DNA of 13,933 bases. Source: Chloroflexota bacterium (GTDB taxonomy: Bacteria; Chloroflexota; Anaerolineae; 4572-78; J111). Position 1 is the stretch's first letter; the number at the start of each line of letters is the position of its first letter. The notes under the pieces were generated by a model that did not search any database, was not told where the DNA came from, and saw only the letters and a list, made by a program, of their open reading frames with translations. Below, in pieces: positions 36 through 13,763 of the stretch. The stretch spans positions 1 to 13,933 of the forward strand of contig RFJF01000022.1 in the NCBI GenBank assembly GCA_003695455.1. The letters are read 5' to 3'. A program made the position numbers and the translations under genes.

Positions 36-2438
36 TTAATCCAGGTCGTACATCAACCGGATTTCGGCGTTGATTTGCGGCAAAAGGTCGGGGTTGTTTT
101 GGGCCAGATTTTGCGCATACTGGTAACTGGTGGCGGCGGCTTCAATGTTTCCCTGATAAAAATTCAGCCGGCCGGTTCTGTAGTACAACTTTATCAATTC
201 TTCCGGATTATTTTTGACCATTTCCCACACCATTTTGTAACAACTGGCTGCCCGGTCAAAATTTCCGGTAAAGGTGCTGGCGTCGCCCAGCCCGTTGGCA
301 ACCTGCAACCAGGTGTCCGGGTCCGGGTTTTCAATCTCTTTCAGCGCATTGAGTGCAACTTCAAGGTGCTGGCAGGCGTCTTCAAAATTATACGTTTCCA
401 GCGCCCGCTGGCCCACCAGCCAGTTGTAAATCACCTTCTTTTCTTCCTGATCACCCGCCATGTAGTGCCGCGCCAGCGATTCAACGCTTTCGGTGTCGTA
501 TTCGGCGGCCGGTTTGTTGGTTTCTGTGAGGGCGGCAATTTTATCGTGCAGTTCGCGCCGGGTTTTGCGCAGCATAGTACGGTAAGCAACTTCACGGACC
601 ACCATTTGAGAAAAGCTGTAAACCAGGTCGTCGGTGGTTTCATCAGTGGGGGTAACGTTTTTGATGAGCGCCCGCTGTTCCAGGTCTTCAATGGCAGCTT
701 GCAAGTTTTTTACCGGCGTAATGGCGGCCAGTAGCCGGTAGCTGAACGTCATCCCAATAACCGACGCGTGCTGCAACACAATGCGGCTGGTTTCATCCAG
801 CACATCCAGGTGAGCCATTACCTGCCCTTCAACGCTGTGCGGAATGTAAATGTCTTCAATGGGACGGGTGAGCCGCCATTTGCCTTTGTCGCGGACGAGC
901 TGTTCAGATTGAATCAGGCCGCGGGCGGCCTCTTCCAGATAAAACGGGTTGCCGCCGGATTCGTTGACCAGCCGGTCAACCAGCGAGGTGGGCAGTTCGC
1001 CGCCGGGCAGCAGGCTGGAGATTAAATCCCGGCGGGCATGGTTGCTGAGCGGAGGCAGCGAAATAACTTCATCGGGGTTGAGGGCGGTGAGCGGTATTTC
1101 CAGTTGGGGGCGGGTAGCGGTGACCACCAGCAAATCATGCGCGTGTTGCTGCCGGGCGGCGTTTGTTTTTTCTGCGCCCAGCAATTGCAACCACATCAAA
1201 GAATTAGAATCTGCCCATTGCAGGTTGTCAATGAGAACCAGAGTGGGCCGGCGGGTAGCTTGTTTGAAAATGGCAGAAACAGCCGTGGTTGCGGCAGATT
1301 TTTGGAGTTGTTCAACATTTTGTTCAAGGTTGCTCAACCGTTGGTCATCCTGATACCAACCCAGCAGATACCCCATCAGCGGCACAAAGTCTCGCTGGGT
1401 CATGCCCAAAATGCGCCCCCGGTCCTCTATTTTCCGTTGCTGCACCAAACGGGAATCATCGCTTTTAATATCAAACAACTGGCTCAAAATTTCGGCAACG
1501 GGCGAGTACGGCTCGCTGGTTCCGCCGCCGCCGTATGCCTGAAGTATTGTGGGGGTTTTTTTAAATTTGTACGTTTGCAGTTGCGTGGCAAATTCATCAA
1601 GCAGACGGCTTTTGCCCATGCCGGCTTCACCCGTTAGCACCACAAATCGGCTTTTGCCGGTAACGGCAAATGACAGGTTGTTGTGCAGCGCCTGCAACTC
1701 CTGGTCCCGTTCAACCAGCGGAGCGCTGCGCTCTTTTGAGCTTTGGCTGGCCCTAAAACTCCGCTTGGGTCTGAGGGGGGTATAAATGGGTACCGGGTTG
1801 CTCTTTCCTTTTACCCGAATAGGCTCCAGAATTTCGTAATCAAAGTAACGCCGGGTCAGCGAGTACACCACATCTGATACAATAATTTGGCCGTTGGTGG
1901 CGTAATGTTCAAGCCGGCTGGCCAGGTTTACGTCATCGCCAATAACGGTGGCGGCTGTTCTGCCGGCCGGCCCCATACGCCCCCAAACCACAATTCCGGT
2001 ATTAATGCCAATGTTTAATTTAAAGGCGTGGCCTATTTTTTCTCGCATGGTTGGCGCCATTTCTTTCATGGCGGCTTGCATGCCCAGCGCCGCCCGCACG
2101 GCTCTTACGGGGTCATCCTCATGGGCGCGGGGCGCGCCAAACAGCACCATCAGTTGGTCCCCCACAGTTTTATCCAGATAGCCGCCTTCGCGGTCATACT
2201 CTACGGCCAGCCGGGTAAATACCTGGTTAAGAATATCAATGACGTCTTCGGGGTCGGTGTTTTCGCTGGTGGCGGTAAAAGAAGCCAGGTCTGCAAATAA
2301 AATTGTCACCAGTCGCCGGTCCCCCATCCACAACTGGCCGGTTTTGCCAATCTGTGGATGCCCGCAGTGGTGGCAATAGGCAACTCCAAATGGCAGTGGT
2401 TTTGTACAGCGAGGGCAAACAATGGGAGATTCGGTCAT
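36..2438 (-). CDS. Zinc-ribbon / class III adenylate cyclase / AAA ATPase / TPR protein (800 aa)
   Basis: Probable signalling protein that makes a cyclic nucleotide, most likely cAMP. Domains in order: an N-terminal zinc ribbon with CxxC pairs at C8/C11 and C22/C25; a class III nucleotidyl cyclase domain (about 40-220); a STAND/AAA-type ATPase (about 240-560) with Walker A GEAGMGKS at 270-277 and a Walker B-like LVLIDNLQWAD around 400-410; then a helical, TPR-like C-terminus. The cyclase residues look complete: metal ligands D50 (LFADLASFT) and D94 (VGDQLMVLFG), K90, T164 in the purine-selecting position, and N171/R175 (NLASRLE). K plus T fits ATP better than GTP. At 800 aa it is shorter than many relatives, which carry longer TPR tails. 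The start lies 2 nt after the stop of the upstream HD-GYP gene, so the two are very likely co-transcribed and perhaps translationally coupled. No strong Shine-Dalgarno is visible. Domain calls are firm; the ligand and the partner are unknown. Confidence 0.9.
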   Translation of the reverse strand: MTESPIVCPRCTKPLPFGVAYCHHCGHPQIGKTGQLWMGDRRLVTILFADLASFTATSENTDPEDVIDILNQVFTRLAVEYDREGGYLDKTVGDQLMVLFGAPRAHEDDPVRAVRAALGMQAAMKEMAPTMREKIGHAFKLNIGINTGIVVWGRMGPAGRTAATVIGDDVNLASRLEHYATNGQIIVSDVVYSLTRRYFDYEILEPIRVKGKSNPVPIYTPLRPKRSFRASQSSKERSAPLVERDQELQALHNNLSFAVTGKSRFVVLTGEAGMGKSRLLDEFATQLQTYKFKKTPTILQAYGGGGTSEPYSPVAEILSQLFDIKSDDSRLVQQRKIEDRGRILGMTQRDFVPLMGYLLGWYQDDQRLSNLEQNVEQLQKSAATTAVSAIFKQATRRPTLVLIDNLQWADSNSLMWLQLLGAEKTNAARQQHAHDLLVVTATRPQLEIPLTALNPDEVISLPPLSNHARRDLISSLLPGGELPTSLVDRLVNESGGNPFYLEEAARGLIQSEQLVRDKGKWRLTRPIEDIYIPHSVEGQVMAHLDVLDETSRIVLQHASVIGMTFSYRLLAAITPVKNLQAAIEDLEQRALIKNVTPTDETTDDLVYSFSQMVVREVAYRTMLRKTRRELHDKIAALTETNKPAAEYDTESVESLARHYMAGDQEEKKVIYNWLVGQRALETYNFEDACQHLEVALNALKEIENPDPDTWLQVANGLGDASTFTGNFDRAASCYKMVWEMVKNNPEELIKLYYRTGRLNFYQGNIEAAATSYQYAQNLAQNNPDLLPQINAEIRLMYDLD

Positions 2439-2440
2439 AG

Positions 2441-3619
2441 TTACAGGGTTGCCTCAACAATCATGTCTTCTTTTTGTGCCAAATTAAGGTTGATGGGCGA
2501 AACCCTGTTACCCAGCGGGTTGAATAGCAGCCTGATAACCGGGCGTTGGGGGTGCTGTGGATTGTGTTCAATGACTACCCCTTTGTAATTGGCATAGCGC
2601 CCGGCCCGAACCACAATGTTGATTCCTTTGGGCAACAGCGGCATGGCCGATAAAAAGATTTCAACCAGTTCTTTGTTTAAAAACGTGCCGGCCAATTGCT
2701 GCAATGTTTGCGCAATTTGTTTGGGAGACAGGGCGGGGCGTTGGGGGGCGGCGTTACTGAGAATATCAAACGTATCTGCCAGCGTGGTAATTTCTGTGAT
2801 GAGCATAATGTTATCACGCGAGAAGCGGGCCCGCTCGATGGTGTTGGTGCCGCGCAGTCCGCGCGGATACCCTTTGCCGTCTTGCCGCTCATGGTGTTCA
2901 AGGGCAACGTGGTTGACCATGACATTTTCCGGGTCGCGCTTGCGGAGCAGCTCGTAGCCCAGCCGGGTGTGGTCCCTTATTTTTAGCATTTGTGCCGGGT
3001 TGGGAGGTTGGCCGTTAACGTGCAGCAGGGTGGGGTGAAAAAAAATCTTGCCAATATCGTGTAGCATGCAGGCGGTACCCAGCCTGATTAAATCAGTTTC
3101 AGAAAGGTGCAGCAGTTTGCCAACAAACATGCCCACCGCTGCCACGTTGACCGCGTGCGCAAACTGCAGGTCGCTGCGTCGCCTTATCTGGCTCAGATTT
3201 GCCACCGTTTTTTTATCTGCCACGTCTGCCAGCAGCGCCAGCACAGCCGGTTCCAGCTGATTAAATTCTGCACTGCTGCGCAACGCCTCTGCCACCCCGC
3301 TATCCGCTGTTACTTCTTCTGCAGAAATGTCATTGGCCCCGGCAGATGGGGCGGCAATGTTGCAAACAAAATCGAACACAGCGGCCAGCTTTTGACGGGC
3401 AAATGTGTGTGTGTTTTCAGTTACAAAGCTGTCAATGACAATGTCAGATGTGTCTTCGGCGGCAATAAACGCGTTTGTCAGGTCTCGTTGTTTGAGCACC
3501 GAGATATATTCATCGGTCAGCGTGATGCCCTGCCGCAAGAGGGTGCGTCCACGATCATCTGTAATTGGTTTTGCCAGAGTCATCCCCGGCTGAAGAATAT
3601 CGATCGGTAGTTTCAGCAT
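2441..3619 (-). CDS. HD-GYP domain protein, probable cyclic-di-GMP phosphodiesterase (392 aa)
   Basis: Likely hydrolyses c-di-GMP in the cytoplasm. An N-terminal domain of about 85 residues (DILQPGMTLAKPITDDRGR) resembles the accessory domain often preceding HD-GYP units, and a variable linker follows. The HD-GYP domain spans about 145-310 with an early ligand-type histidine (H155), HDIGK at 187-191, HHER at 242-245 and DGKGYP at 247-252, then the late ADTFD at 281-285. All hallmark HD-GYP residues are therefore present, which argues for an active enzyme. The C-terminus (about 330-392) is a beta-rich extension seen in relatives. No membrane segment or receiver domain is visible, so the input signal is unknown. 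It is the first gene of the - strand operon with the cyclase. Two sigma-28-like promoters precede it, placing it under probable flagellar control. The start has no good Shine-Dalgarno, but the N-terminus aligns well with the family. Confidence 0.92.
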   Translation of the reverse strand: MLKLPIDILQPGMTLAKPITDDRGRTLLRQGITLTDEYISVLKQRDLTNAFIAAEDTSDIVIDSFVTENTHTFARQKLAAVFDFVCNIAAPSAGANDISAEEVTADSGVAEALRSSAEFNQLEPAVLALLADVADKKTVANLSQIRRRSDLQFAHAVNVAAVGMFVGKLLHLSETDLIRLGTACMLHDIGKIFFHPTLLHVNGQPPNPAQMLKIRDHTRLGYELLRKRDPENVMVNHVALEHHERQDGKGYPRGLRGTNTIERARFSRDNIMLITEITTLADTFDILSNAAPQRPALSPKQIAQTLQQLAGTFLNKELVEIFLSAMPLLPKGINIVVRAGRYANYKGVVIEHNPQHPQRPVIRLLFNPLGNRVSPINLNLAQKEDMIVEATL

Positions 3620-3676: not shown

Positions 3677-3703
3677 TTGTCGGCAGATTGCAGTTTGTCT
3701 TTA
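3677..3703 (-). promoter_or_regulatory. Proximal sigma-28 (FliA/SigD) promoter for the HD-GYP/cyclase operon
   Basis: Read on the - strand, the -35 element TAAAGACA (3703-3696) is followed by exactly 11 bases and the -10 element GCCGACAA (3684-3677). The enterobacterial FliA consensus is TAAAGTTT-N11-GCCGATAA: the -10 matches 7 of 8 bases, the -35 matches 5 of 8 including the TAAA core, and the spacing is exact. Transcription would start near 3670, giving a leader of about 50 nt before the HD-GYP start. The matching sigma factor gene is in this window. Confidence 0.66.
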
Positions 3704-3718
3704 GGCTCTTTACGCTAA

Positions 3719-3745
3719 TTTTATGCCCTCTTGATACGAACTTTA
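3719..3745 (-). promoter_or_regulatory. Distal sigma-28-like promoter, tandem with the proximal one
   Basis: Read on the - strand, TAAAGTTC (3745-3738) is followed by exactly 11 bases and GCATAAAA (3726-3719). The -35 matches the FliA consensus at 7 of 8 bases. The -10 is poorer (5 of 8, lacking the central CGAT), so alone this would be weak. It lies 42 bp upstream of the proximal site and points the same way. The -10 could also serve as an A/T-rich housekeeping -10. Confidence 0.4.
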
Positions 3746-3765
3746 CAGACACAAAACTTACCATG

Positions 3766-3774
3766 TGATATAAA
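3766..3774 (+). promoter_or_regulatory. Extended -10 promoter for the fliR operon
   Basis: TGATATAAA contains TATAAA (3769-3774) preceded by the extended -10 TG motif at 3766-3767. No good -35 lies at 16-18 bp; TTTACA at 3742-3747 is 21 bp away. Transcription would start near 3781, giving a leader of about 90 nt with the hairpin at 3832-3856. The ten bases ATGTGATATA recur exactly before the LPXTG gene at 13084-13093, which supports the call. Confidence 0.45.
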
Positions 3775-3870: not shown

Positions 3871-4644
3871 ATGCCCAACACGTTGCAACTTCTCAACCTA
3901 TTTCTGATTTTTGTCAGAGTTTTGGCCGTGCTGATGACAGCCCCAATGTTCAGCAACCGGGGCGTGCCAACCATCACCAAAATTGGATTTGCGGCGTTGC
4001 TGTCTGTTGTGATTGTACCGTTACCCGGCGCCGGAATTGGCTCAAACGCCGGGCATATCCCCACCGATTTTTTGCCGTTTGTGCTGGCTGTAGCCCAGGA
4101 AATTCTGGTTGGCGTGCTGATTGGATTTGTGACCAACCTGATTTTTGTGGCCGTAGGCATTGCCGCCAATATGATGGGCGTGCAGGCCGGCTTCCGCGCG
4201 GCCAGTTTATTCAATCCCTTCACCAACGTCTCATCATCGGCGCTGGATCAATTTTATACCCTGATGGCCATTGCCCTGTTTCTGGTAATCAATGGTCATC
4301 ACTGGTTGATTGCCGCGCTGGCCCGCACATTTGAAGTTGTGCCGGTGGGCAGTTTTGTTTTTGCCAACGTCACCATGGAGCGATTGATTTTTCTGTTTAA
4401 CCAGACGTTTGTAATCGGCGTAACGCTGGCGCTGCCGGTGGTGGGCACGTTGCTCATTACCGATGTGGGTTTGGGGTTGCTGGCGCGGGCCGTTCCCCAA
4501 ATTCAGGTATTTTTTGTGGGGCTGCCGTTAAAAATGGGGCTGGGCTTTTTAACGCTGGCGCTCACTGTTCCCATCACCCTGCCGGTTATCAAAGATTTGT
4601 TTACCCACATTGCCGCCAACATCTCTGCCATTTTGGTGCCGTAA
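3871..4644 (+). CDS. fliR: Flagellar biosynthetic protein FliR (257 aa)
   Basis: Integral membrane component of the flagellar type III export gate, where FliP, FliQ and FliR form the substrate channel. The protein is almost wholly hydrophobic, with about six predicted membrane helices. It has the family pattern near the N-terminus (FVRVLAVLMTAPMFSNRGVP, then KIGFAALLSVV) and the central GVQAGFRAASLFNPF region typical of FliR. Its length matches the usual 250-265 residues. An in-frame TGA at 3859-3861 makes ATG 3871 the first usable start. No Shine-Dalgarno is visible and a hairpin precedes the start. It is the first gene of a long + strand operon; the usual partners fliP and fliQ do not precede it. 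A 20-nt gap separates it from flhB. Confidence 0.95.
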   Translation: MPNTLQLLNLFLIFVRVLAVLMTAPMFSNRGVPTITKIGFAALLSVVIVPLPGAGIGSNAGHIPTDFLPFVLAVAQEILVGVLIGFVTNLIFVAVGIAANMMGVQAGFRAASLFNPFTNVSSSALDQFYTLMAIALFLVINGHHWLIAALARTFEVVPVGSFVFANVTMERLIFLFNQTFVIGVTLALPVVGTLLITDVGLGLLARAVPQIQVFFVGLPLKMGLGFLTLALTVPITLPVIKDLFTHIAANISAILVP

Positions 4645-4664: not shown

Positions 4665-5741
4665 ATGGATGACAGGACCGAAGCCCCAACCGCAAAAAGA
4701 CGCAGCGAAGCCCGTCAAAAGGGCCAGGTTGCCAAAAGCGTCGAAGTAAATACCGCGCTGCTGGTGCTGATGGCCTTTTGGTTGCTGAATATTTCCGGCG
4801 GCCGTTTTTACCAGGGCATCAGCCTGGTGATGCACCGCACGTTTAGCCAACTGCCAACCATAGAATTTACGCCCGAAGTGCTGTTTTCCGGAATGCAGGA
4901 TTTGGCGGCGGCCTTTTTGTGGATACTGGCGCCCTTTGCCCTGCCACTGATGCTGGCCGGTGTGGTGGCTAACGTTATTCAAACCGGGTTATTTTTCAGC
5001 GGCAAGGTTTTAAAGCCGGAAGCCAGCAAAATCAACCCGGTCAACGGCTTTAAAAAAATCTTCTCTACCCGCGGGATGGCCGATTTGCTGAAATCAATCA
5101 TCAAAGTGTTGGTGGTGGGCAGCGTCATTTACATTACCGTCAGAGATAATTTTGGCGTCATTCTGGCCTCAAGTCGCATGGATTTATCGGCCGGGGTCAG
5201 TGCAATGGCCGGGCTGACCATTGAAATCGGTTTTCGGGTGGCGGCAATTATGGTTGTGCTGGCCTTTATTGACTACTTTTACCAAAAATATGAGCACGAA
5301 AAAAGCCTGAAAATGACCAAGCAGGAAGTGCGCGAAGAGGCCAAACAGCAGGAAAACCCCCAACTCAAAGGCCGCATCCGTTCGCGCCAGCGCCAACTGG
5401 CTATGAGCCGCATGATGGCCGCCATTCCGGAAGCCGACGTGGTGATTACCAACCCCACCCATTATGCCGTAGCACTCAAATACGAGCAGGGAACATCGCA
5501 GGCGCCGGTGGTGTTGGCCAAAGGGCAGCGGCTGGTGGCCCAGCGCATAAAAAACCGCGCCCGCGAAAACAATGTGCCGCTGGTTGAAAACAAACCACTG
5601 GCCCGGTCGCTGTTTAAATCGGTTGAGGTGGGGCAGGCCATCCCTGTGGAATTGTACAAAGCTGTGGCCGAAGTGCTGGCGTTTGTGTACCGGCTGAAAC
5701 CAAAAGGCCGCAAACTCGCCACAGGCAGGAGGGAAGCATGA
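4665..5741 (+). CDS. flhB: Flagellar biosynthetic protein FlhB (358 aa)
   Basis: Export-gate membrane protein that switches substrate class from rod/hook to filament after autocleavage. The N-terminus carries the family signature (RTEAPTAKRRSEARQKGQVAKS), followed by four membrane segments between about 28 and 205. A charged linker and the cytoplasmic domain follow. The self-cleavage motif NPTH is at 263-266, within VVITNPTHYAVALKY, and the following PLVENKPLARSLF region is intact. Its length is normal, and this gene should make a fully functional autoprotease. The Shine-Dalgarno before ATG 4665 is weak. The 3' end overlaps the HDOD gene start by 4 nt (ATGA), suggesting coupled translation. 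Confidence 0.96.
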   Translation: MDDRTEAPTAKRRSEARQKGQVAKSVEVNTALLVLMAFWLLNISGGRFYQGISLVMHRTFSQLPTIEFTPEVLFSGMQDLAAAFLWILAPFALPLMLAGVVANVIQTGLFFSGKVLKPEASKINPVNGFKKIFSTRGMADLLKSIIKVLVVGSVIYITVRDNFGVILASSRMDLSAGVSAMAGLTIEIGFRVAAIMVVLAFIDYFYQKYEHEKSLKMTKQEVREEAKQQENPQLKGRIRSRQRQLAMSRMMAAIPEADVVITNPTHYAVALKYEQGTSQAPVVLAKGQRLVAQRIKNRARENNVPLVENKPLARSLFKSVEVGQAIPVELYKAVAEVLAFVYRLKPKGRKLATGRREA

Positions 5742-6622
5742 CAGCCATCAAAACCACACCGGCCCAAATGCAAAAGGTTCTGGCCTGTGTGGATGACCTG
5801 AAAGCGTTGCCCACTACCATTGTCAGAGCATTGCAGCTACTGGATGAACCGGGCGTTTCTGTGAACGAGATTGTTTCGGTGTTGTCGGTAGACCAGGCCA
5901 TTACCGCCCGGCTGCTCAAGCTGGCAAATTCGGCGTACTACGGCACGCGCTACCGGGCCAGCACCCTGCATGAAGCCGTGATGCGGTTGGGTTTTAAGCG
6001 CACCAAAAACCTGTTGTTTGCACTTTCTTACTCTACGCTGCTCTCGCGGCGGGTGGCCGGTTACAACCTGGGCCGCGGCGAATTGTGGAGACATTCGGTG
6101 GCGGTGGCTTTAACCGCCCAGCGCCTGTCTGAACGGGTGGCCTACGCCGCCCCGGATGAAGCATACGTGGCCGGCTTGCTGCACGATATTGGCAAATTAA
6201 TGCTCGATCAATATTTCACCATGGATTGGGACGCTCTGTTAGCCAGCGTGCGCAGCCACAACCAAACACTGATTGAGGCCGAAGAAAGTTGGTGGGGCAT
6301 GAACCACGCGCAGGTAGGTGCAGAACTGGCCCGCAAATGGGATTTGCCCGCCGTGCTGGTTGACGCAATTGAGTTTCACCACACCCCGCAGCAGGCAGAC
6401 CAAAACCAGAAGCTGGCAGCCATTGTGAATTTGGCAAACATTATCTGCCTTGAGTTAGGCATTGGCCTGGCAGACCCGGAACTGCTCACCGATTCAAAAG
6501 AAGAGGCGCTCCAAATCCTCTCTCTTTCTGTGGAAGATGTGGAAGAACTGCGAGAAAATTACCGTGAAATGCTGGAGTATTCGCTGGGCAGTAACAACGA
6601 ATTGATGCCGGCAAACGGCTGA
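5738..6622 (+). CDS. HDOD domain protein inside the flagellar export operon (294 aa)
   Basis: HDOD proteins are HD-related, usually non-enzymatic signalling domains linked to chemotaxis, motility and c-di-GMP control. The domain spans about 13-215: the opening LKALPTTIVRALQLL and the LANSAYYG segment (62-69) are typical HDOD motifs. HD-type residues are better kept than in many HDOD proteins: H119, H149-D150 in LLHDIGK, H190 and H214/H215 are present, while the last expected aspartate appears as N234 in NLANII. Phosphohydrolase activity is therefore uncertain. There is no membrane segment or attached receiver domain. The start overlaps flhB by ATGA, with a strong AGGAGG just upstream. It ends 17 nt before flhA. 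Its position between flhB and flhA implies a role in flagellar assembly or its regulation, but the target is unknown. Confidence 0.9.
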   Translation: MTAIKTTPAQMQKVLACVDDLKALPTTIVRALQLLDEPGVSVNEIVSVLSVDQAITARLLKLANSAYYGTRYRASTLHEAVMRLGFKRTKNLLFALSYSTLLSRRVAGYNLGRGELWRHSVAVALTAQRLSERVAYAAPDEAYVAGLLHDIGKLMLDQYFTMDWDALLASVRSHNQTLIEAEESWWGMNHAQVGAELARKWDLPAVLVDAIEFHHTPQQADQNQKLAAIVNLANIICLELGIGLADPELLTDSKEEALQILSLSVEDVEELRENYREMLEYSLGSNNELMPANG

Positions 6623-6639
6623 CCCCGGAGAGATGCTGG

Positions 6640-8790
6640 ATGACCGTTAACACCTCGGTAGCAACAAAAGACGGATTGCGCAGAATTCTGGACAACAGCG
6701 ACGTTGTGCTGGCGGTGGCCGTAATTGCCATTGTGGCTATGATGGTCATCCCCATGCCCACGGCCATGTTGGATTTGATGCTGGCATTCAACATTGCTCT
6801 GGCCGTCACCATCACCCTGGTATCGCTGTACATTCAAAAACCGCTTGATTTTTCGGTGTTCCCCTCGCTGCTGCTCATTCTCACCCTGTTCCGGCTGGCA
6901 CTCAATGTTTCAAGCACGCGGCTCATTCTGCTCACGGCCAACGCGGGCAGCATTATCAACGCCTTTGGTAATTTTGTGGTAGGCGGCAACTACGTGGTCG
7001 GCGTGGTGGTCTTTCTCATTTTAATGGCCATTCAATTTATTGTGATCACCAACGGCGCCGGCCGCGTGGCCGAAGTTGCCGCCCGCTTCACCCTTGACGC
7101 CATGCCCGGCAAGCAAATGAGCATTGATGCCGACCTGAACGCCGGGCTAATCACCGAAGACCAGGCGCGCGCCCGCCGCAAAGAAATTGAGCACGAAGCA
7201 GATTTTTACGGCGCAATGGATGGGGCCAGCAAATTTGTTAAGGGCGATGCCATTGCCGGCGTGGTGATTGTGCTGGTCAACATTATTGGCGGGTTCATCA
7301 TTGGAATGTTCCAACTGAATATGACGCTGATGGAAGCGCTGCAAACCTACACCCTGCTCACCGTGGGCGATGGTCTGGTATCGCAAATTCCGGCGCTGCT
7401 CATCAGCACCGCCACCGGCATCATTGTAACCCGCACCGCCGCCGATGACACAATGGGCGGCGACGTGGTCAAACAGATTACCGGCAATCACCGGGCACTG
7501 ATGATTGTGGCGGCCATGCTGTTTGGCTTTGCGCTGGTACCCGGCCTGCCCAAAATCCCCTTTATTGTGATGGGCATTGTTGCCGGGGCCGCCGGCTATT
7601 TTGTGCGCCGCGAAAAACAAACCAGCCAAATCATTCAATCGCAGGTGGCCGAAGAACAGCAAGCCAAACAACCCGCCGCCGATGCCGACTCGGTGACGGC
7701 GCTGTTGCAGGTAGACACGCTTGAACTGGAAATTGGCTACGGCTTGATTCCGCTGGTAGAAAGCGGAAACAGCGCCAGCCTGCTGGACAGAATTACAATG
7801 ATCCGGCGGCAGGTGGCCATGGAAATGGGCTTTATTCTGCCCAAAATCCGCATCCGCGATAACCTGCAACTGCCGCCCAACGTGTACGCCATCAAACTGC
7901 GTGGCGCCGAGGTGGCCCGCGGCAGTCTGATGCCCGGCCAATATATGGCCATGGCCGCCGGCCCGGTTGTTGAGCAGATTCCCGGCGTGTCTACCACCGA
8001 ACCCGCCTTTGGCCTGCCCGCCGTCTGGATTGACGCCACCCACAAAGAACGCGCCGAAACATTGGGGTACACCGTTGTTGACCCGGCTTCGGTGGTGGCT
8101 ACTCACCTGACAGAAGTGGTCAAAATGCACGCCCCGGAAATTGTGAGCCGGCAGGATGTGCGCAACCTGCTTGATAACCTCAAAGAAATCCAGCCGGCGC
8201 TGGTTGAAGACCTGATTCCCGGTGTGATGAGCCTGAGCGATGTGCACGATGTGCTGAAAAACCTGCTGCGCGAACGGGTGTCAATCCGTGATCTGGTTAC
8301 CATTATGGAAACTATCAGCGCTCTGGCTCCCAGTGTGAAAGACCCGGACCTGCTGGCCGAAGCCACCCGGCAAAAACTGGCGCGCTCCATTTCAAACCAG
8401 AATCAGGCCGCCGACGGCGCTATCCACGTGGTCACGCTCAGCCCCCGGGTTGAACGGATGTTGAGCCAGGCCATGGGTGACCTGAGCAACGGCATCAGTC
8501 TGAATATGGAGCCGGGCATTGCCCAGCAACTGCTCGAAGCCACCGCCCAGCAAATGGAAGGACTGGCCGCGCAGGGGTACATGCCGGTTGTGCTGTGCAG
8601 CGCCACTATTCGGCTGGCGTTCAAACGGCTTACCGAACGGGCGTTGCCTAACCTGTCGGTGCTGTCTTACAGCGAGATTGCTTCCGGCGTTGATGTTCAC
8701 GCCGAAGGCATGGTTGATGTGCCAATTCAGTCTGGCCTGGCCGGCGAAAACGCAGCCGCGCAGACTGCCGGCCGAACGGCCAACTCATAA
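6640..8790 (+). CDS. flhA: Flagellar biosynthesis protein FlhA (716 aa)
   Basis: Largest export-gate protein; it forms a nonameric ring and couples the proton motive force to protein export. The N-terminal half has about eight membrane helices. The cytoplasmic FHIPEP signature region is clear at about 149-203: RFTLDAMPGKQMSIDADLNA, then the ARRKEIEHEADFYGAMDGA stretch and KFVKGDAIAGV. The C-terminal cytoplasmic domain (about 360-690), which docks chaperone-substrate complexes, is complete. Length and motifs match the family, and nothing looks broken. GGAGAG about ten bases upstream supports ATG 6640. The gene follows the HDOD gene by 17 nt and precedes flhF by 26 nt. Confidence 0.97.
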   Translation: MTVNTSVATKDGLRRILDNSDVVLAVAVIAIVAMMVIPMPTAMLDLMLAFNIALAVTITLVSLYIQKPLDFSVFPSLLLILTLFRLALNVSSTRLILLTANAGSIINAFGNFVVGGNYVVGVVVFLILMAIQFIVITNGAGRVAEVAARFTLDAMPGKQMSIDADLNAGLITEDQARARRKEIEHEADFYGAMDGASKFVKGDAIAGVVIVLVNIIGGFIIGMFQLNMTLMEALQTYTLLTVGDGLVSQIPALLISTATGIIVTRTAADDTMGGDVVKQITGNHRALMIVAAMLFGFALVPGLPKIPFIVMGIVAGAAGYFVRREKQTSQIIQSQVAEEQQAKQPAADADSVTALLQVDTLELEIGYGLIPLVESGNSASLLDRITMIRRQVAMEMGFILPKIRIRDNLQLPPNVYAIKLRGAEVARGSLMPGQYMAMAAGPVVEQIPGVSTTEPAFGLPAVWIDATHKERAETLGYTVVDPASVVATHLTEVVKMHAPEIVSRQDVRNLLDNLKEIQPALVEDLIPGVMSLSDVHDVLKNLLRERVSIRDLVTIMETISALAPSVKDPDLLAEATRQKLARSISNQNQAADGAIHVVTLSPRVERMLSQAMGDLSNGISLNMEPGIAQQLLEATAQQMEGLAAQGYMPVVLCSATIRLAFKRLTERALPNLSVLSYSEIASGVDVHAEGMVDVPIQSGLAGENAAAQTAGRTANS

Positions 8791-8796
8791 AAAACC

Positions 8797-8826
8797 GCAC
8801 AATGTGAGTAAGCACAATGCGAGTAA
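8797..8826 (+). repeat. 15-bp tandem duplication over the flhF start, with an ATG-TGA start-stop
   Basis: GCACAATGTGAGTAA (8797-8811) is followed directly by GCACAATGCGAGTAA (8812-8826), differing at one base. The second copy contains the flhF ATG (8817). The first contains an in-frame ATG at 8802 followed at once by TGA, a one-codon start-stop 15 nt upstream. The single C/T difference turns CGA into TGA. No Shine-Dalgarno precedes either ATG. Confidence 0.85.
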
Positions 8827-9989
8827 AAAAGTATCTGGTAAAAAATATGCCCGAAGCGATGGAGCTGATTAAGCTGGAGTTAGGCCCCAACGCTGTGATT
8901 CTTCACTCTGAAAAGGTGCGGAAAGGTGGGGTGTTTGGCTTGTTTGCACGCCCCAAATTTGAGGTGGTGGCTGCCGTAGATACAGATTTGCAGGATTTTC
9001 CGCAGCACAACAGCCACGGCGACCCATCAATCCAGGCCATGCGCGACGAGTTGAAAAACCTGCGGGTTGCCATTAGCCAGGTTGCCGCCCGGCCCCAACC
9101 CGTACCCAACTCTGTGCCGCGAGTTGCCAGTCTTGAAAGCTGGTATCAGCGGCTCATTGACCAGGGTGTGGCCCAACATCTGGCGCACCAAACCATTCAG
9201 CGGGTTGCCAACGAACTGAGCCGCTGGACGTTGGACAATCAGGGCGTGCTCAACGAACATCTGCACTGGTATCTTGGCCGCCAGTTGCCGCCGCCGGTGC
9301 AACTCAATCTGAACCCGGCCGGCCCGCAGGTTTTCTTTGTGGTTGGCCCCACCGGCGTGGGCAAAACCACCACACTGGCAAAACTTGCCGCCAAATTTGC
9401 CCACACGCCCTACAAGAAAAACCGGGTGCTGATGATTACCACCGATACATTTCGGGTGGCGGCCATTCCCCAGATTTCTGCCTTTGGCGAGATTTTGGGC
9501 GTGCCGGTAGAAGTGGCCTACACCCCGGACGACCTGCTGGCGCTCATCAAATCTAACGCCGACAAAGACCTGATCCTGATTGACACCCCCGGCCGCAGCC
9601 AGCGCGCTGCCAGCGAGGTTGCCGCCCTGAGCGATTACCTGGCCGCCGTTCCGGAAAAAATTGTTCATCTGGCTATCAATGCCGGCACAAAATATGAGGA
9701 TATGCACCAGATTATAGAAGCCTTCAGCGCCATGCCGCTTGACGGCCTCATTTTTACCAAAATTGATGAAACCAGCTCGCTGGGGGCCGCTTACTCTGTG
9801 GCCTGTGAGCGAGCTTTGCCGCTGAGTTACCTGACCAACGGGCAGCGCGTACCGGAAGACATAGAAGTAGCCACCGCCGATTATGTGGTAGATTTGCTGG
9901 TTGGCCCCGTCCCCGACGGTATTCGAAGTACCCGCAACGGAAATTCACACCAAACCATGCCCGGTGTCAGGCAGGAGGTAACCGTATGA
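8817..9989 (+). CDS. flhF: Flagellar GTPase FlhF (390 aa)
   Basis: SRP-type GTPase that helps set where and how many flagella are built. The N-terminal basic domain is typical (MRVKKYLVKNMPEAMELIK, then ELGPNAVILHSEKV). A variable linker (about 55-105), an N domain and a G domain (about 165-370) follow. G-domain motifs: P-loop GPTGVGKTT at 177-185, TTDTFRVAA at 208-216, DTPGRSQ at 256-262 (the family usually has DTAGRS) and TKIDE at 314-318. The A-to-P change in DTAG is unusual but not clearly disabling. ATG 8817 is chosen because the family N-terminus begins there; the upstream copy of the start is stopped by TGA. The 3' end overlaps flhG by 4 nt (ATGA). Confidence 0.95.
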   Translation: MRVKKYLVKNMPEAMELIKLELGPNAVILHSEKVRKGGVFGLFARPKFEVVAAVDTDLQDFPQHNSHGDPSIQAMRDELKNLRVAISQVAARPQPVPNSVPRVASLESWYQRLIDQGVAQHLAHQTIQRVANELSRWTLDNQGVLNEHLHWYLGRQLPPPVQLNLNPAGPQVFFVVGPTGVGKTTTLAKLAAKFAHTPYKKNRVLMITTDTFRVAAIPQISAFGEILGVPVEVAYTPDDLLALIKSNADKDLILIDTPGRSQRAASEVAALSDYLAAVPEKIVHLAINAGTKYEDMHQIIEAFSAMPLDGLIFTKIDETSSLGAAYSVACERALPLSYLTNGQRVPEDIEVATADYVVDLLVGPVPDGIRSTRNGNSHQTMPGVRQEVTV

Positions 9990-10861
9990 TGCTTGATGTG
10001 CAAGCCCTGTCCGAACTGGACTACCTGGCCTATCCCAAGTACCAGAGCCGGGTCATTGCCATTGCCAGCGGAAAAGGCGGCGTGGGCAAAACTAACCTGG
10101 CCGTCAATCTGGGGTTAACGCTGGCCCGCAGAAACCTGCGGGTGGCGTTGCTCGATGCAGACCTGGGTACGGCCAACGCCGATATTCTGCTGGGGCTGCA
10201 ACCCAGGTTTCACCTGCACCACGTAGTGACCGGCCAGAAAAAATTACCGGAAATCATTGTAGAAGCCCAACACGGGCTAAAAGTGATTCCCGGCGCATCG
10301 GGGCTGCCGGAACTGGCCGACTTGCCGGAACGCCAGCGGCACAGTCTGCTGCACAGCCTGCTGGTTCTTGACGGCACAGTAGATTTGCTGCTCATTGATA
10401 CCGGAGCCGGGGTTGGCAGCAACGTGCTGCAATTTGTGCGGGCCGCCGGCGAGGTGCTGGTGGTGACTACGCCCGAACCCACCGCCATTACCGACGCGTA
10501 CGCGCTGATCAAATCCATCAGTCACTACCAGATTCCCATTACTACCCGGGTGGTCATCAACAACGTGCGCAAAAAAGGCGAAGGTGACATTGCCGGGCAA
10601 AAACTGGCTAAAGTAGCGCATCAATTTTTGGGCAAACAGATTGAATTGCTGGGCGTTCTGCCCTACGACGACATGGTGCAGCGGGCCGTGCGGGCGCAAA
10701 CGCCGCTGGTTGAAAGTTATCCCCGCTCACCGGCGGCCGTGGCTATTAATACCCTCGCCGAACATCTGTGGGCCGGCACGCCCCTGACCGCCGGTACATC
10801 GGGCGGCGTCAAAGAATTTCTGAAACGAATTCTCTCTCTTCGTGTAGAAACAGCATTTTAG
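9986..10861 (+). CDS. flhG: Flagellar number regulator FlhG (MinD-like ATPase, 291 aa)
   Basis: MinD/ParA-type ATPase, also called FleN or YlxH, that works with FlhF to control flagellar number. The deviant Walker A GKGGVGKT is at 29-36, the switch motif DADLGTAN at 57-64 and DTGAG at 138-142. A C-terminal basic/amphipathic segment (KEFLKRILSLRVE) fits membrane targeting. FlhG normally carries an N-terminal DQAxxLR motif that stimulates FlhF; here the N-terminus reads LDVQALSEL, at best a degenerate version. A perfect AGGAGGT (9973-9979) sits 6 nt before ATG 9986. A second ATG follows immediately, so the true start could be 9989. The gene is coupled to flhF by overlap. Confidence 0.94.
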   Translation: MMLDVQALSELDYLAYPKYQSRVIAIASGKGGVGKTNLAVNLGLTLARRNLRVALLDADLGTANADILLGLQPRFHLHHVVTGQKKLPEIIVEAQHGLKVIPGASGLPELADLPERQRHSLLHSLLVLDGTVDLLLIDTGAGVGSNVLQFVRAAGEVLVVTTPEPTAITDAYALIKSISHYQIPITTRVVINNVRKKGEGDIAGQKLAKVAHQFLGKQIELLGVLPYDDMVQRAVRAQTPLVESYPRSPAAVAINTLAEHLWAGTPLTAGTSGGVKEFLKRILSLRVETAF

Positions 10862-11217: not shown

Positions 11218-11263
11218 GAACCAATTTTGAGGCAGCCTGGAACAGCCTTTATTGCCCCAAACC

Positions 11264-11268
11264 AAGGA
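11264..11268 (+). promoter_or_regulatory. Ribosome binding site deciding the fliA start
   Basis: AAGGA lies 10 nt before ATG 11279 and supports that start over the upstream TTG at 11252, which has no such site. The spacer carries the 10-bp palindrome ACGTTAACGT (11268-11277). Confidence 0.5.
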
Positions 11269-11278
11269 CGTTAACGTT

Positions 11279-12091
11279 ATGGACGAAGTAGCAGAACTCT
11301 GGCAACGACATGTAAAAGAAAAAGACCGAGCCGCCCGCGAGGAGCTAATCCTTCACTACTCCAAGCTGGTCAAATATGTGGTTGGACGGTTAGCCATTGG
11401 GCTGCCCCCCAGCTTGCAGTACGAAGACCTGATTGGCTACGGAACGTTGGGGCTGATTGAGGCAGTGGACCGCTTTGACCCGGACCACGGCGTAAAATTT
11501 GCCACGTACGCCGTTACCCGCATCCGCGGGCAAATCATCGATTCTCTGCGCTCAATGGATTTACTGCCCCGCTCGGTTTACCGGCACAACCGGGAAATTG
11601 AAAACGCTTTTGCCAACCTCAGCCAAAAACTGGGCCGCGCACCAAATAATGAAGAAGTGGCCGAGTTCCTGAACATCAGCCCGGAGCAGTATCAAAACTG
11701 GCTGGCCGACATCAATTTTGCCATTATTTCACTTGATCAAACCCAAATTTTTGACAACGGCGAGCAGGCCAATCTGTACGGTTCGCTGGAGGATTCGCAC
11801 ATGCCAACACCCCAACAACAAATGGACGACAAAGAACTGAAGTCCGAACTTGTGGCCGCTATCCGTGAATTACCGGAGCGCGAACAGTTGATGATTTCGC
11901 TCTACTACAACGATGGCCTGACCATGAAAGAAATTGGCAAAGTGCTGGAGGTTTCAGAATCCAGAGTCAGCCAGATTCATGCCAGAACCATGCTCACGCT
12001 GCGCAGCCTGATAAAAAACCGCGCCGAACCCAACCCGGTTATTTACAGCAGGAGAGGACGCTATGCTTCAGTATTTGCCGCTGCTTCTTAG
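11279..12091 (+). CDS. fliA: Flagellar sigma factor FliA / SigD (sigma-28, 270 aa)
   Basis: Alternative sigma factor for late flagellar and chemotaxis genes. Region 1.2/2 starts AELWQRHVKEKD and contains VKYVVGRLAIGLPP, DLIGYGTLGLIEAVDRFDP and VKFATYAVTRIRGQIIDSLR, with LLPRSVYR closing the -10 recognition region. Region 3 covers about 104-140, and region 4 about 195-247 with a clear helix-turn-helix (MKEIGKVLEVSESRVSQIHA). These features are those of the FliA/SigD/WhiG group rather than other sigma-70 members. ATG 11279 is chosen because family members begin at this point (MDEVAELWQRH). The last 29 nt overlap the next gene, as with Bacillus sigD and swrB, which are adjacent. No FlgM-like anti-sigma gene is in the window. 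Probable targets include the promoters at 3677-3745. Confidence 0.95.
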   Translation: MDEVAELWQRHVKEKDRAAREELILHYSKLVKYVVGRLAIGLPPSLQYEDLIGYGTLGLIEAVDRFDPDHGVKFATYAVTRIRGQIIDSLRSMDLLPRSVYRHNREIENAFANLSQKLGRAPNNEEVAEFLNISPEQYQNWLADINFAIISLDQTQIFDNGEQANLYGSLEDSHMPTPQQQMDDKELKSELVAAIRELPEREQLMISLYYNDGLTMKEIGKVLEVSESRVSQIHARTMLTLRSLIKNRAEPNPVIYSRRGRYASVFAAAS

Positions 12092-13070
12092 TTTAATTAT
12101 TTTGGGCGCCACCGCCTACCTCTATTTGATGACGCGTAAAATGATTGATGACGCGCCCACTGCTGCTACGGCCCCGCTGCCGCCGCCGGCCTGGGTACAG
12201 GATCACGCCTCGGTTACCAAAATGGCGCAGGATGTGGCCGAACTGGTTACCGAATTGCAAGCCGTGGCCGATGTTACCCGCCACGGAGCGCACGCGCAAC
12301 GTGATGAATTGCAGGCTATGTTGCAGCAGGTTGAAACCGCCGCCACCGAGTTACGCAGCCTGCTGGCTCGCGCCGAAGCCTTGACGACGGCTCCGGCGTC
12401 TGCCCCGGAACCAACACCGATTTCCACAGCGCCCGCGGCGTCAAGTCAACCGGCCCCGGAGGATGAGCCGCTGGTGCCGCTTGAGCTGGTTTACTCGCCC
12501 TCAAATTTTGGCGAATATTTGCGCATCAGTGGTTGCGGCCACGATGTAGTGAGCGTTGCCGTTGAACACGCGCAGGAATTTGTCATCTGGTACACCAACC
12601 AGTTTAACGACCAGACTCCGCCCGGCCCCATCGAGGCCCAACATCTGGAAGATTACCTGCAAAATATGGAATCGCTGGGCTACGACCCCGATACCATCAA
12701 GCGCCGCTTTATTGCCCTGAAAGCATACATTAGCTGGGTCAACAATATTCTGGAAGCCGAAGAGACTCCGGTTGCCCAAAGTCAGCATCAGCCCCAGCCT
12801 GCCGCCCCGCCCACGCCGCCGGTTGACGATACAGACACCACGTTGCAAGCCAAAACCATGTTGCTTGGCGATGCCGATTCTGCCCAATCGCCCGCAGCTG
12901 AAACTGCGGGCAGTGCCAATCGGCCTGCCGACAAGTTCAGCAAAGTGTTCTCATTGGCCGATGAAGGGCTGGACCAGTTGGCTATTGCCGCCCGCACCGG
13001 GCTGGAACAGGAAGCGGTGCGTATGTTGCTGGCAATGGGTCGCTCGGCGTTTGCCGGCCCCGGAATTTAA
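12063..13070 (+). CDS. SwrB-like membrane protein with coiled coil, SAM-like domain and C-terminal HTH (335 aa)
   Basis: Candidate flagellar assembly factor. Layout: one N-terminal membrane helix (about 3-23); a predicted coiled coil (about 50-105); a Pro/Ala-rich linker; a compact helical domain (about 146-232); a second low-complexity linker; and a short helix-turn-helix-like motif (about 292-326: FSLADEGLDQLAIAARTG, then EAVRMLLAM). Membrane helix, coiled coil and this last motif, directly after the sigma factor gene, match SwrB of Bacillus subtilis, which sits just after sigD and promotes basal-body maturation. The middle domain is extra: its pattern (SNFGEYLRISG, HLEDYLQNMESLG, TIKRRFIALKAYISWV) resembles the SAM-like DNA-binding N-terminal domain of tyrosine recombinases, but no catalytic domain follows. 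The start overlaps fliA by 29 nt and is set by AGGAGAGG about 6 nt upstream. Orthology to SwrB is inferred from architecture and position. Confidence 0.72.
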   Translation: MLQYLPLLLSLIILGATAYLYLMTRKMIDDAPTAATAPLPPPAWVQDHASVTKMAQDVAELVTELQAVADVTRHGAHAQRDELQAMLQQVETAATELRSLLARAEALTTAPASAPEPTPISTAPAASSQPAPEDEPLVPLELVYSPSNFGEYLRISGCGHDVVSVAVEHAQEFVIWYTNQFNDQTPPGPIEAQHLEDYLQNMESLGYDPDTIKRRFIALKAYISWVNNILEAEETPVAQSQHQPQPAAPPTPPVDDTDTTLQAKTMLLGDADSAQSPAAETAGSANRPADKFSKVFSLADEGLDQLAIAARTGLEQEAVRMLLAMGRSAFAGPGI

Positions 13071-13130: not shown

Positions 13131-13763
13131 ATGAAATTGTTCAAATGGCTCTTTTCTGTAATATTTTTTGCGGCGGCGCTCACGGTGGCTTCAGCCCCGG
13201 CAGCCGCCAACGGCGCGCCGGTTAAAATATTTCTCAATTATTTACCGGAACTGTCTAATTACGGCGCTACCAGCGCCAGCGGCGTGGCGCAGGTCAGCAT
13301 TGGCGAAGCCTGGGTAGACCTGCAAGCCGAAGGGCTGCCCCAACTGGCGGGCGTGCAGTACGAAGCCTGGCTGGTCACGTCGGACGAGCAAATGATTAGC
13401 CTGGGCACCTTCAACAGTGATGCCGATGGCCGCGTGGATTACTATGCCGAATTTGACGATATCCCGGTGCTGGATTACCGCTTTTTTGTTATCAGCGTTG
13501 AATCTGTGCCGGACACCAACCCCGACGAGGCCGACCCCCGCCGTTCCATCGCCGGCGTTTTTCCCAATGCCCGGCTGGAAATTGTGAGCGGCACACCCAC
13601 GGCCACGCTGGAGCCGGGTATTACGGCTACCCCCGGAGCGCCCGCCGGGCTGCCGGTCACCGGCAACGCCAACGCATCGGCGGTGGCGGCGGCAATCTGG
13701 CTGGCGCTGGGGTTGTTGCTGGTGGCAGTTGGGCTGGCGCTGAAAAAGCGCCGCTTTGAATGA
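13131..13763 (+). CDS. LPXTG sortase-anchored surface protein with RskA-like domain (210 aa)
   Basis: Secreted protein predicted to be covalently attached to the cell wall. It has a signal peptide (about 1-26, cleavage near APAAAN) and an extracellular domain (about 30-150). A Thr/Pro linker (TPTATLEPGITATPGAP) follows, then LPVTG at 174-178, a membrane helix (about 184-204) and a KKRR tail: a textbook sortase sorting signal. The globular part has the pattern YEAWLVTSDEQMISLGTF, then DADGR, resembling the extracytoplasmic domain of anti-sigma-K (RskA) proteins, but there is no cytoplasmic sigma-binding domain. GGAGG (13121-13125) sits 5 nt before the ATG. The gene has its own probable promoter and lies between swrB-like and rod genes. 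A sortase is not encoded in the window. The sorting signal is clear; the function is not known. Confidence 0.85.
   Translation: MKLFKWLFSVIFFAAALTVASAPAAANGAPVKIFLNYLPELSNYGATSASGVAQVSIGEAWVDLQAEGLPQLAGVQYEAWLVTSDEQMISLGTFNSDADGRVDYYAEFDDIPVLDYRFFVISVESVPDTNPDEADPRRSIAGVFPNARLEIVSGTPTATLEPGITATPGAPAGLPVTGNANASAVAAAIWLALGLLLVAVGLALKKRRFE

Follow-up and report, generated by a model that had tools for sequence, protein, structure and literature searches.

The E. coli gene yhjH, which encodes a c-di-GMP phosphodiesterase, depends on FliA for its expression, according to the available part of the report (PMC4183435), and a late flagellar role for c-di-GMP breakdown is thus already on record. The locus analysed here resembles it in placing a predicted sigma28 promoter before a predicted cyclic-di-GMP phosphodiesterase gene, an arrangement by which it would be a late flagellar gene, and differs in that yhjH, as far as the available text goes, has no cyclase partner, does not lie beside fliR and has a near-consensus promoter (PMC4183435). 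The E. coli aer promoter, TAAAGATA-n11-GCCGACAT, needs both FliA and CRP, and the accessible portion of that study gives 223 Miller units with both proteins present, 53 without CRP and 12 without FliA (PMC2859248). Its sigma28 sequence is nearly the same as the one considered here, and an activator binds immediately upstream, at a site with its centre at -49.5; however, the activator of aer is CRP and its site is palindromic, whereas our locus has direct repeats and a putative activation (PMC2859248, same portion). Finally, in Rhodobacter two divergent flagellar promoters share one CtrA site, and the half-sites of CtrA in alphaproteobacteria are spaced by 11 bp (TTAA-N7-TTAA) near the -35 of flagellar operons, as in the array described below; the CtrA site has two half-sites of the sequence TTAA, while the array has four units of TTTACG/TTCACG (PMC6180460, in the part available).

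Full-text searches, judged from titles and the starts of abstracts, turned up no description of this array and, among the papers listed, none on FliA-type promoters of Chloroflexota, a field little described in the searchable literature.

The window, by which we mean the whole stretch of 13,933 nt that was analysed, is an entire contig (C640) of a 4.38-Mb genome in 929 contigs that is 87% complete; its features are collected in Table 1. The sequence-only reading had placed a cognate sigma factor gene in the same locus as the HD-GYP gene, and this stood: the product scored 254.3 bits with the FliA/WhiG family model TIGR02479 against an NCBIfam cut-off of 189.6, and it matched the solved structures 6pfv and FliA 6pmi. 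The start given for that gene did not stand, the ATG being internal to a frame that opens with TTG. The order flhB-flhA-flhF-flhG was the same in four other genomes (G001, G013, G015 and G004), the HDOD gene excepted. That gene (5738-6622 in the window) lies between flhB and flhA, as it also does in G017, and no match to it was found between flhB and flhA in the same four genomes. Two genes that follow fliA, at 12063-13070 and 13131-13763, were conserved in G001 with 48% and 73% identity; one has no Pfam match and the other a sub-cut-off match to RskA_C (27.5 bits, cut-off 29.4).

Table 1. Positions, strands and supporting evidence for the features of the window.
Feature	Positions	Strand	Basis
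Class III nucleotide cyclase (predicted) with AAA_16 ATPase region	36..2438	-	PF00211 2.3e-29, PF13191 9.7e-19
HD-GYP domain protein, predicted cyclic dinucleotide phosphodiesterase	2441..3619	-	PF13487 HD_5 2.2e-14
Predicted sigma28 (FliA) promoter of the putative HD-GYP–cyclase operon	3677..3703	-	TAAAGACA-N11-GCCGACAA; consensus match and conservation
Four 11-bp direct repeats, candidate operator	3709..3745		TAAA-N7-TCAA-N7-TAAA-N5-CG-TAAA on -; zero mismatches
Predicted sigmaA-type fliR promoter	3746..3774	+	CAGACA, 17-nt spacer, extended -10 TGATATAAA; -10 hexamer 3769-3774
fliR, first gene of the putative early operon	3871..4644	+	TIGR01400 above cut-off
flhB, HDOD protein, flhA, flhF and flhG-like genes	4665..10861	+	tight spacing, single strand; family matches
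fliA, sigma28 gene, same gene run	11252-12091 (TTG start; inner ATG 11279)	+	TIGR02479

Direct reading of 3703..3677 on the minus strand gave TAAAGACA-AACTGCAATCT-GCCGACAA. As the sequence-only reading had claimed, this agrees with the FliA consensus TAAAGTTT-N11-GCCGATAA at 12 of 16 positions (5/8 and 7/8) with the exact gap of 11 nt; against TAAA-N15-GCCGATAA it agrees at 11 of 12, the boxes being 15 nt apart where the norm for sigma28 is 15-16 nt. The distance to the HD-GYP start, put at about 55 nt, was borne out as well, the ATG (3619) lying 57 nt past the end of the -10.

The same reading had called the promoter strong, and that was overstated. With a clade matrix built from nine fliC and flgM promoters of the clade the site scored 10.2 (maximum 28.6), second in the window to a best of 10.3, and 24 of 40 random 13.9-kb sequences had a site as good as that best. 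We also used an E. coli matrix of 15 FliA sites, picked from a published table for flagellar or clearly FliA-responsive genes, a choice of our own that excluded the fliAYZ site although it is also FliA-responsive. With this matrix the site scored 17.6, the highest in the window, none of 40 random windows did better, and the estimated chance of such a score in a single strand of 251 bp was about 1 in 2000; the E. coli FliA sites themselves scored 6.2 to 25.4 when left out in turn. Taken by itself, then, the single match is arguable.

Counting of patterns was of little help in finding further sites. The loose pattern TAAA-N14-16-GCCGANAA was not enriched genome-wide and was discarded as evidence, since its 14 matches fell below the 18 of its reversed control. 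A tighter FliA pattern gave 42 matches in eight genomes against 46 for the reversed control (summed), so that pattern counts alone fail to find the sigma28 regulon, and it was useful only where a match preceded flgM. A scan of contig C236 for sigma28-like sites found none between genes. One gene behind a sigma28-like site, on contig C531 of G000, was considered as a chemoreceptor and excluded as a target; its first 468 residues match HAMP and the sensor domain of histidine kinases, and Cache only below cut-off.

The sigma28 system of the clade could be followed at individual genes. Sigma28 sites precede flgM in five genomes (G001, G004, G013, G015 and G017), a number that is not a hit rate given that these promoters were located mostly via sigma28 matches or cluster scans; FlgM was identified by Pfam in G004, G013 and G015 and by resemblance in the other two. 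A site was also present at four of the five flagellin genes with readable upstream DNA (G000, G001, G004 and G017), the fifth, in G013, being the latter of two tandem copies of which the first begins at the contig edge. Likewise, four of six flbD/mot regions have one (G004, G013, G015 and G023; absent in G001 and G017), with FlbD checked by Pfam in G001 and G013, MotA in G004, and the other regions assigned by matching array sequences. The FlgM genes and the sites at flgM, fliC and flbD/mot point to a FlgM–FliA system of a working kind in this clade, as far as genes and promoters can tell.

Divergent fliR and HD-GYP genes are common to six loci (G000, G001, G004, G013, G015 and G017), and a seventh (G023) is truncated within HD-GYP. 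The cyclase gene lies 3' of HD-GYP on the same strand in all seven loci that show it, with spacing from a 4-bp overlap to a gap of about 45 bp, which makes an HD-GYP–cyclase operon plausible. Conservation of the sigma28 site before HD-GYP orthologues, which had been proposed as a check on the claim, was found: TAAAG is kept in all six promoters and GCCGA in five, at a spacing of 15 or 16, and G004, the sixth, combines an intact -35 with a degenerate -10 (TGTCGAAAC). The end of the -10 lies 45-99 nt before the HD-GYP start in those five loci (G000, G001, G013, G015 and G017). No -10 column is invariant in the DNA alignment, G017 being offset by one base and G004 divergent, and the six promoters are orthologous and hence not independent. 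Position and conservation together indicate that the site is more than chance.

Among 25 genomes of the order, several of them incomplete, an HD-GYP orthologue (E at most 1e-25) was found in 7 of the 8 that bear FliA and in none of the 17 without it; the FliA-bearing genome in which none was found at this threshold is G007. Three HD-GYP relatives from outside the order (L052, L053 and L054) had neither a sigma28 site nor the array within 300 bp, their best sigma28 scores being 3.6, 0.1 and 3.2 and their best array matches having 5, 8 and 9 mismatches of 17, respectively. In the first of these, from a more distant Chloroflexota MAG (L052:2003-5605), the HD-GYP–cyclase pair is nevertheless retained (38% and 37% identity), and the pair can therefore exist without such a control region.

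The proteins encoded by the pair have the sequence features of their predicted families. In the HD-GYP protein, Pfam HD_5 and HD both scored above cut-off, the HD, HDxGK and HHExxDGxGYP motifs are retained in all six orthologues, and the protein resembles the solved HD-GYP chains 5z7c (a 3'3'-cGAMP phosphodiesterase), 4r8z and 4mcw. It is thus predicted by its motifs to be a phosphodiesterase, while the cyclic dinucleotide that it would cleave is predicted without confidence. The yhjH enzyme is of the EAL type, unlike this one. The cyclase domain has as its closest solved chain the adenylate cyclase 2w01 and is followed by the AAA_16 region; in the alignment the window protein and its orthologues share the Asp, Lys/Thr, Asn and Arg, of which we take the Asp to be the metal ligand and the Lys and Thr to be the base-reading positions. 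These are the residues of a class III adenylyl cyclase, and production of cAMP is predicted.

The sequence-only reading had confined itself to the sigma28 site and overlooked a larger feature beside it, which is also the more novel of the two. The block next to the sigma28 site is the most conserved intergenic DNA of the locus, with four TNAA units at an 11-bp period that read TAAA-N7-TNAA-N7-TAAA-N5-CG-TAAA on the HD-GYP strand, and this array is present in all six orthologous intergenic regions. It sits between the two predicted divergent promoters, and its fliR-side end runs into the predicted -35/extended -10 promoter of fliR.

With at most one mismatch allowed, the array was found in 63 of 396 genomes of the class. 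In total, the eight FliA-bearing genomes of the order hold 52 matches and no reversed-control match, and the other 388 genomes, of which G216, G082 and G109 are also FliA-bearing, hold 89 against 36 for reversed controls. The pattern was derived from the hdgyp region and the first-seen sites, so that matches there are not independent, and flanks were fetched for only some of the 141 places. Where flanks were available, and the fliR orthologues apart, 48 of 51 arrays were intergenic by a simple in-house ORF caller. The array fronts the fliR orthologues in six of six, and adjacent gene starts elsewhere include fliW (4 genomes), fliK (5), a FliI-type ATPase (3), flbD (2), motA (1), fliA (G007, G082 and G109) and, in G216, a fliR that belongs to a different family. 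Scanning covered 40 of the 90 flanking proteins, and some neighbours are non-flagellar by annotation, among them carbamoyltransferases, PrkA, a TPR protein, enzymes that modify sugars, and a cytochrome.

The distance from array to promoter proved to be fixed. A gap of exactly 23 nt separates the last repeat from the best -10 in 41 of 54 arrays, against a mean of 1.6 and a maximum of 6 over 500 rounds of shuffled tails; these comprise all six fliR orthologues and 35 of the 48 others. The 54 were drawn from 57 arrays, with L274 (inside an ORF), L276 and L278 omitted and L287-L292 not added. On the TTTA strand, 37 of these 54 arrays have a last repeat that continues into CTGA or CAGA. Read in this way, the 23-nt arrangement is that of a predicted sigmaA-type promoter with a 17-nt spacer and the candidate operator abutting the -35, which the window fliR promoter, CAGACA-N17-TATAAA (3746-3774), fits exactly.

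Direct repeats of 11-bp period placed at or before the -35 mark the operators of the OmpR/PhoB family, and the array has both properties. PhoB and PhoP boxes, which belong to this family, are 11-bp direct repeats, with the repeat period and the position relative to the -35 seen in the array, and with a sequence and target genes unlike those of the array. We rejected the idea, suggested by this geometry, that the array is a phosphate (PHO) box, since there was no phosphate-uptake gene among the flanking proteins scanned (40 of 90). An OmpR-type response regulator (L279:764-1570; PF00072 and PF00486, Trans_reg_C) is encoded near the flagellar cluster of G001, and as the reader of the array it is only a candidate. 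It was also conceivable that the repeats are not an operator at all, and act as UP-type A-tract elements that bind the alpha subunit of RNA polymerase, given that the units are A-rich, fall on one helical face and lie close to the -35 of both sigma28 and sigmaA-type promoters. However, the last TAAA follows a CG at each of the six hdgyp promoters and the four fliC promoters with a site, the distance from array to -10 is fixed, and there are few arrays per genome; we consider UP-type elements very improbable.

Another alternative is that a general regulator, such as an OmpR-family member of the phosphate or stress type, uses the array, with flagellar genes as one branch of its many targets. The excess over reversed controls in the 388 genomes outside the FliA-bearing eight speaks for this, as do the arrays beside genes for carbamoyltransferase, PrkA, TPR and sugar-modifying proteins. 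That arrays also occur in genomes not known as flagellated counts against the mechanism proposed below. On the other hand, the density of arrays is highest in the FliA-bearing genomes of the order, in three of the outside genomes examined (G216, G082 and G109) the array is found at fliR or fliA within flagellar clusters, and the lack of phosphate-uptake genes in the scanned flanks also speaks against a phosphate-type regulator. We regard a general regulator as a serious possibility, short of a probable one.

Two further arrangements of the array were observed. Facing pairs of arrays, each with its own outward extended -10, lie between a long gene and the flbD/mot genes at L246:2337-2419 (G001), L250:2514-2649 (G013), L255:2502-2709 (G004) and L252:2525-2607 (G017). 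Arrays also precede ornithine/aspartate carbamoyltransferase genes in two genomes of the order, by 545 bp in L257 (G016) and 336 bp in L275 (G018), and FliA was not found in either genome.

Given that array and sigma28 site adjoin at the HD-GYP locus, it was reasonable to consider that the whole block serves fliR only, with TAAAG at 3703 an outlying repeat, the GCCGA-like bases due to chance and the HD-GYP promoter located elsewhere. The invariance of the -35-like TAAAG beside a variable -10, and the low score of the site under the clade matrix, are consistent with this. To see whether the site merely copies the array, we scored the far side within 25 nt for 39 arrays from FliA-bearing genomes. 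The six HD-GYP flanks gave E. coli-matrix scores of 22.7, 21.2, 17.6, 17.1, 13.5 and 7.6, whereas only two of the 33 others exceeded 6.1, at flbD of G013 (18.0) and at a lipoprotein-like gene of G001 (16.1), both possibly late genes; a mot site of G004 (21.2) lies one base beyond the 25-nt limit. The sigma28 unit is therefore a separate feature of the HD-GYP region and not a copy of part of the array. Moreover, the G017 site lies about nine bases farther from the array and is still near-consensus (TAAAGTTC, GCCGAAAA), as is the G013 site. A block serving fliR alone is in our view unlikely. The converse, that the array is only a part of FliA recognition, was rejected because a sigma28 site is absent from most arrays, which stand before sigmaA-type promoters.

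The two elements do recur together. Ahead of sigma28 sites at fliC and flbD/mot there is likewise a partial array. For the four fliC sites it consists of two repeats with 11-bp spacing, 19 bp before the -35 (start to start); at HD-GYP, five loci have the repeat 9-10 bp from the -35, and G017 has it at 19 bp. The orientation of the array relative to sigma28 promoters is opposite to that at sigmaA-type promoters. The flgM promoters of the clade have no array. A composite of array and sigma28 site gave 11 matches in 7 of 396 genomes and none for reversed controls, at hdgyp (6), fliC (3), the lipoprotein-like gene (1) and elsewhere (1); since the hdgyp and fliC sites had served to build the pattern, it adds only its rarity and the matches at the lipoprotein-like gene and elsewhere. 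The lipoprotein-like gene itself (L182:655-1482 / L248:1621-2448; G001 C11:311320-312147) encodes a proline-rich protein without a Pfam match, lies near the flagellar cluster and has upstream of it the array and a sigma28 site, TCAAGTTT-N11-GTCGAAAA.

Because the array lies directly upstream, the sigma28 site may not be the whole control of the HD-GYP–cyclase genes, and the aer and CtrA precedents make help from an activator plausible; the reversed orientation of the array and its absence from the flgM promoters speak against such help. The reading of these genes as a late operon thus held in part: the site is conserved and the spacing makes co-transcription plausible, while the promoter is not strong and possibly not sufficient. 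We think it likely that the late-gene reading is right, with a modest site that would be one half of a two-way control region.

We consider it probable that the gap between fliR and HD-GYP is such a region, with an early sigmaA-type promoter for fliR…fliA and a late sigma28 promoter for hdgyp–cyclase. In the mechanism that we propose, these 250 bp would act as a two-way flagellar control region in which a regulator would bind the array (3709-3745), probably one of the OmpR/PhoB type given that its target would be four direct repeats facing the same side of the helix. The bound regulator would activate the sigmaA-type extended -10 promoter and with it fliR-flhB-HDOD-flhA-flhF-flhG…fliA, and these early genes would supply FliA. 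FliA, once freed from FlgM, would then read the weak sigma28 promoter (3703-3677) and transcribe HD-GYP and cyclase as a late operon, in the manner of fliC, flgM and flbD/mot. A fall in c-di-GMP and a rise in cAMP are predicted to follow completion of the hook and basal body.

A broader proposal, which we put forward tentatively and would sooner doubt than assert, is that flagellated members of the class share a master-regulator code. At fliR, fliW, fliK, fliI, flbD/mot and fliA the TTTACG/TTCACG array would stand upstream of an extended -10 by a fixed 23 nt, and in reversed orientation it would boost the sigma28 promoters of fliC, flbD/mot and the HD-GYP–cyclase operon. One array would in this way time both early and late transcription and couple completion of the flagellum to removal of c-di-GMP and synthesis of cAMP.

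The array is a concrete cis-element with a list of genes attached, and offers a way to search with a single DNA bait for the regulator that would bind it. If the HD-GYP and cyclase genes do form a late operon, this would extend the principle known from yhjH to another phylum and another enzyme family, with a cyclase added.
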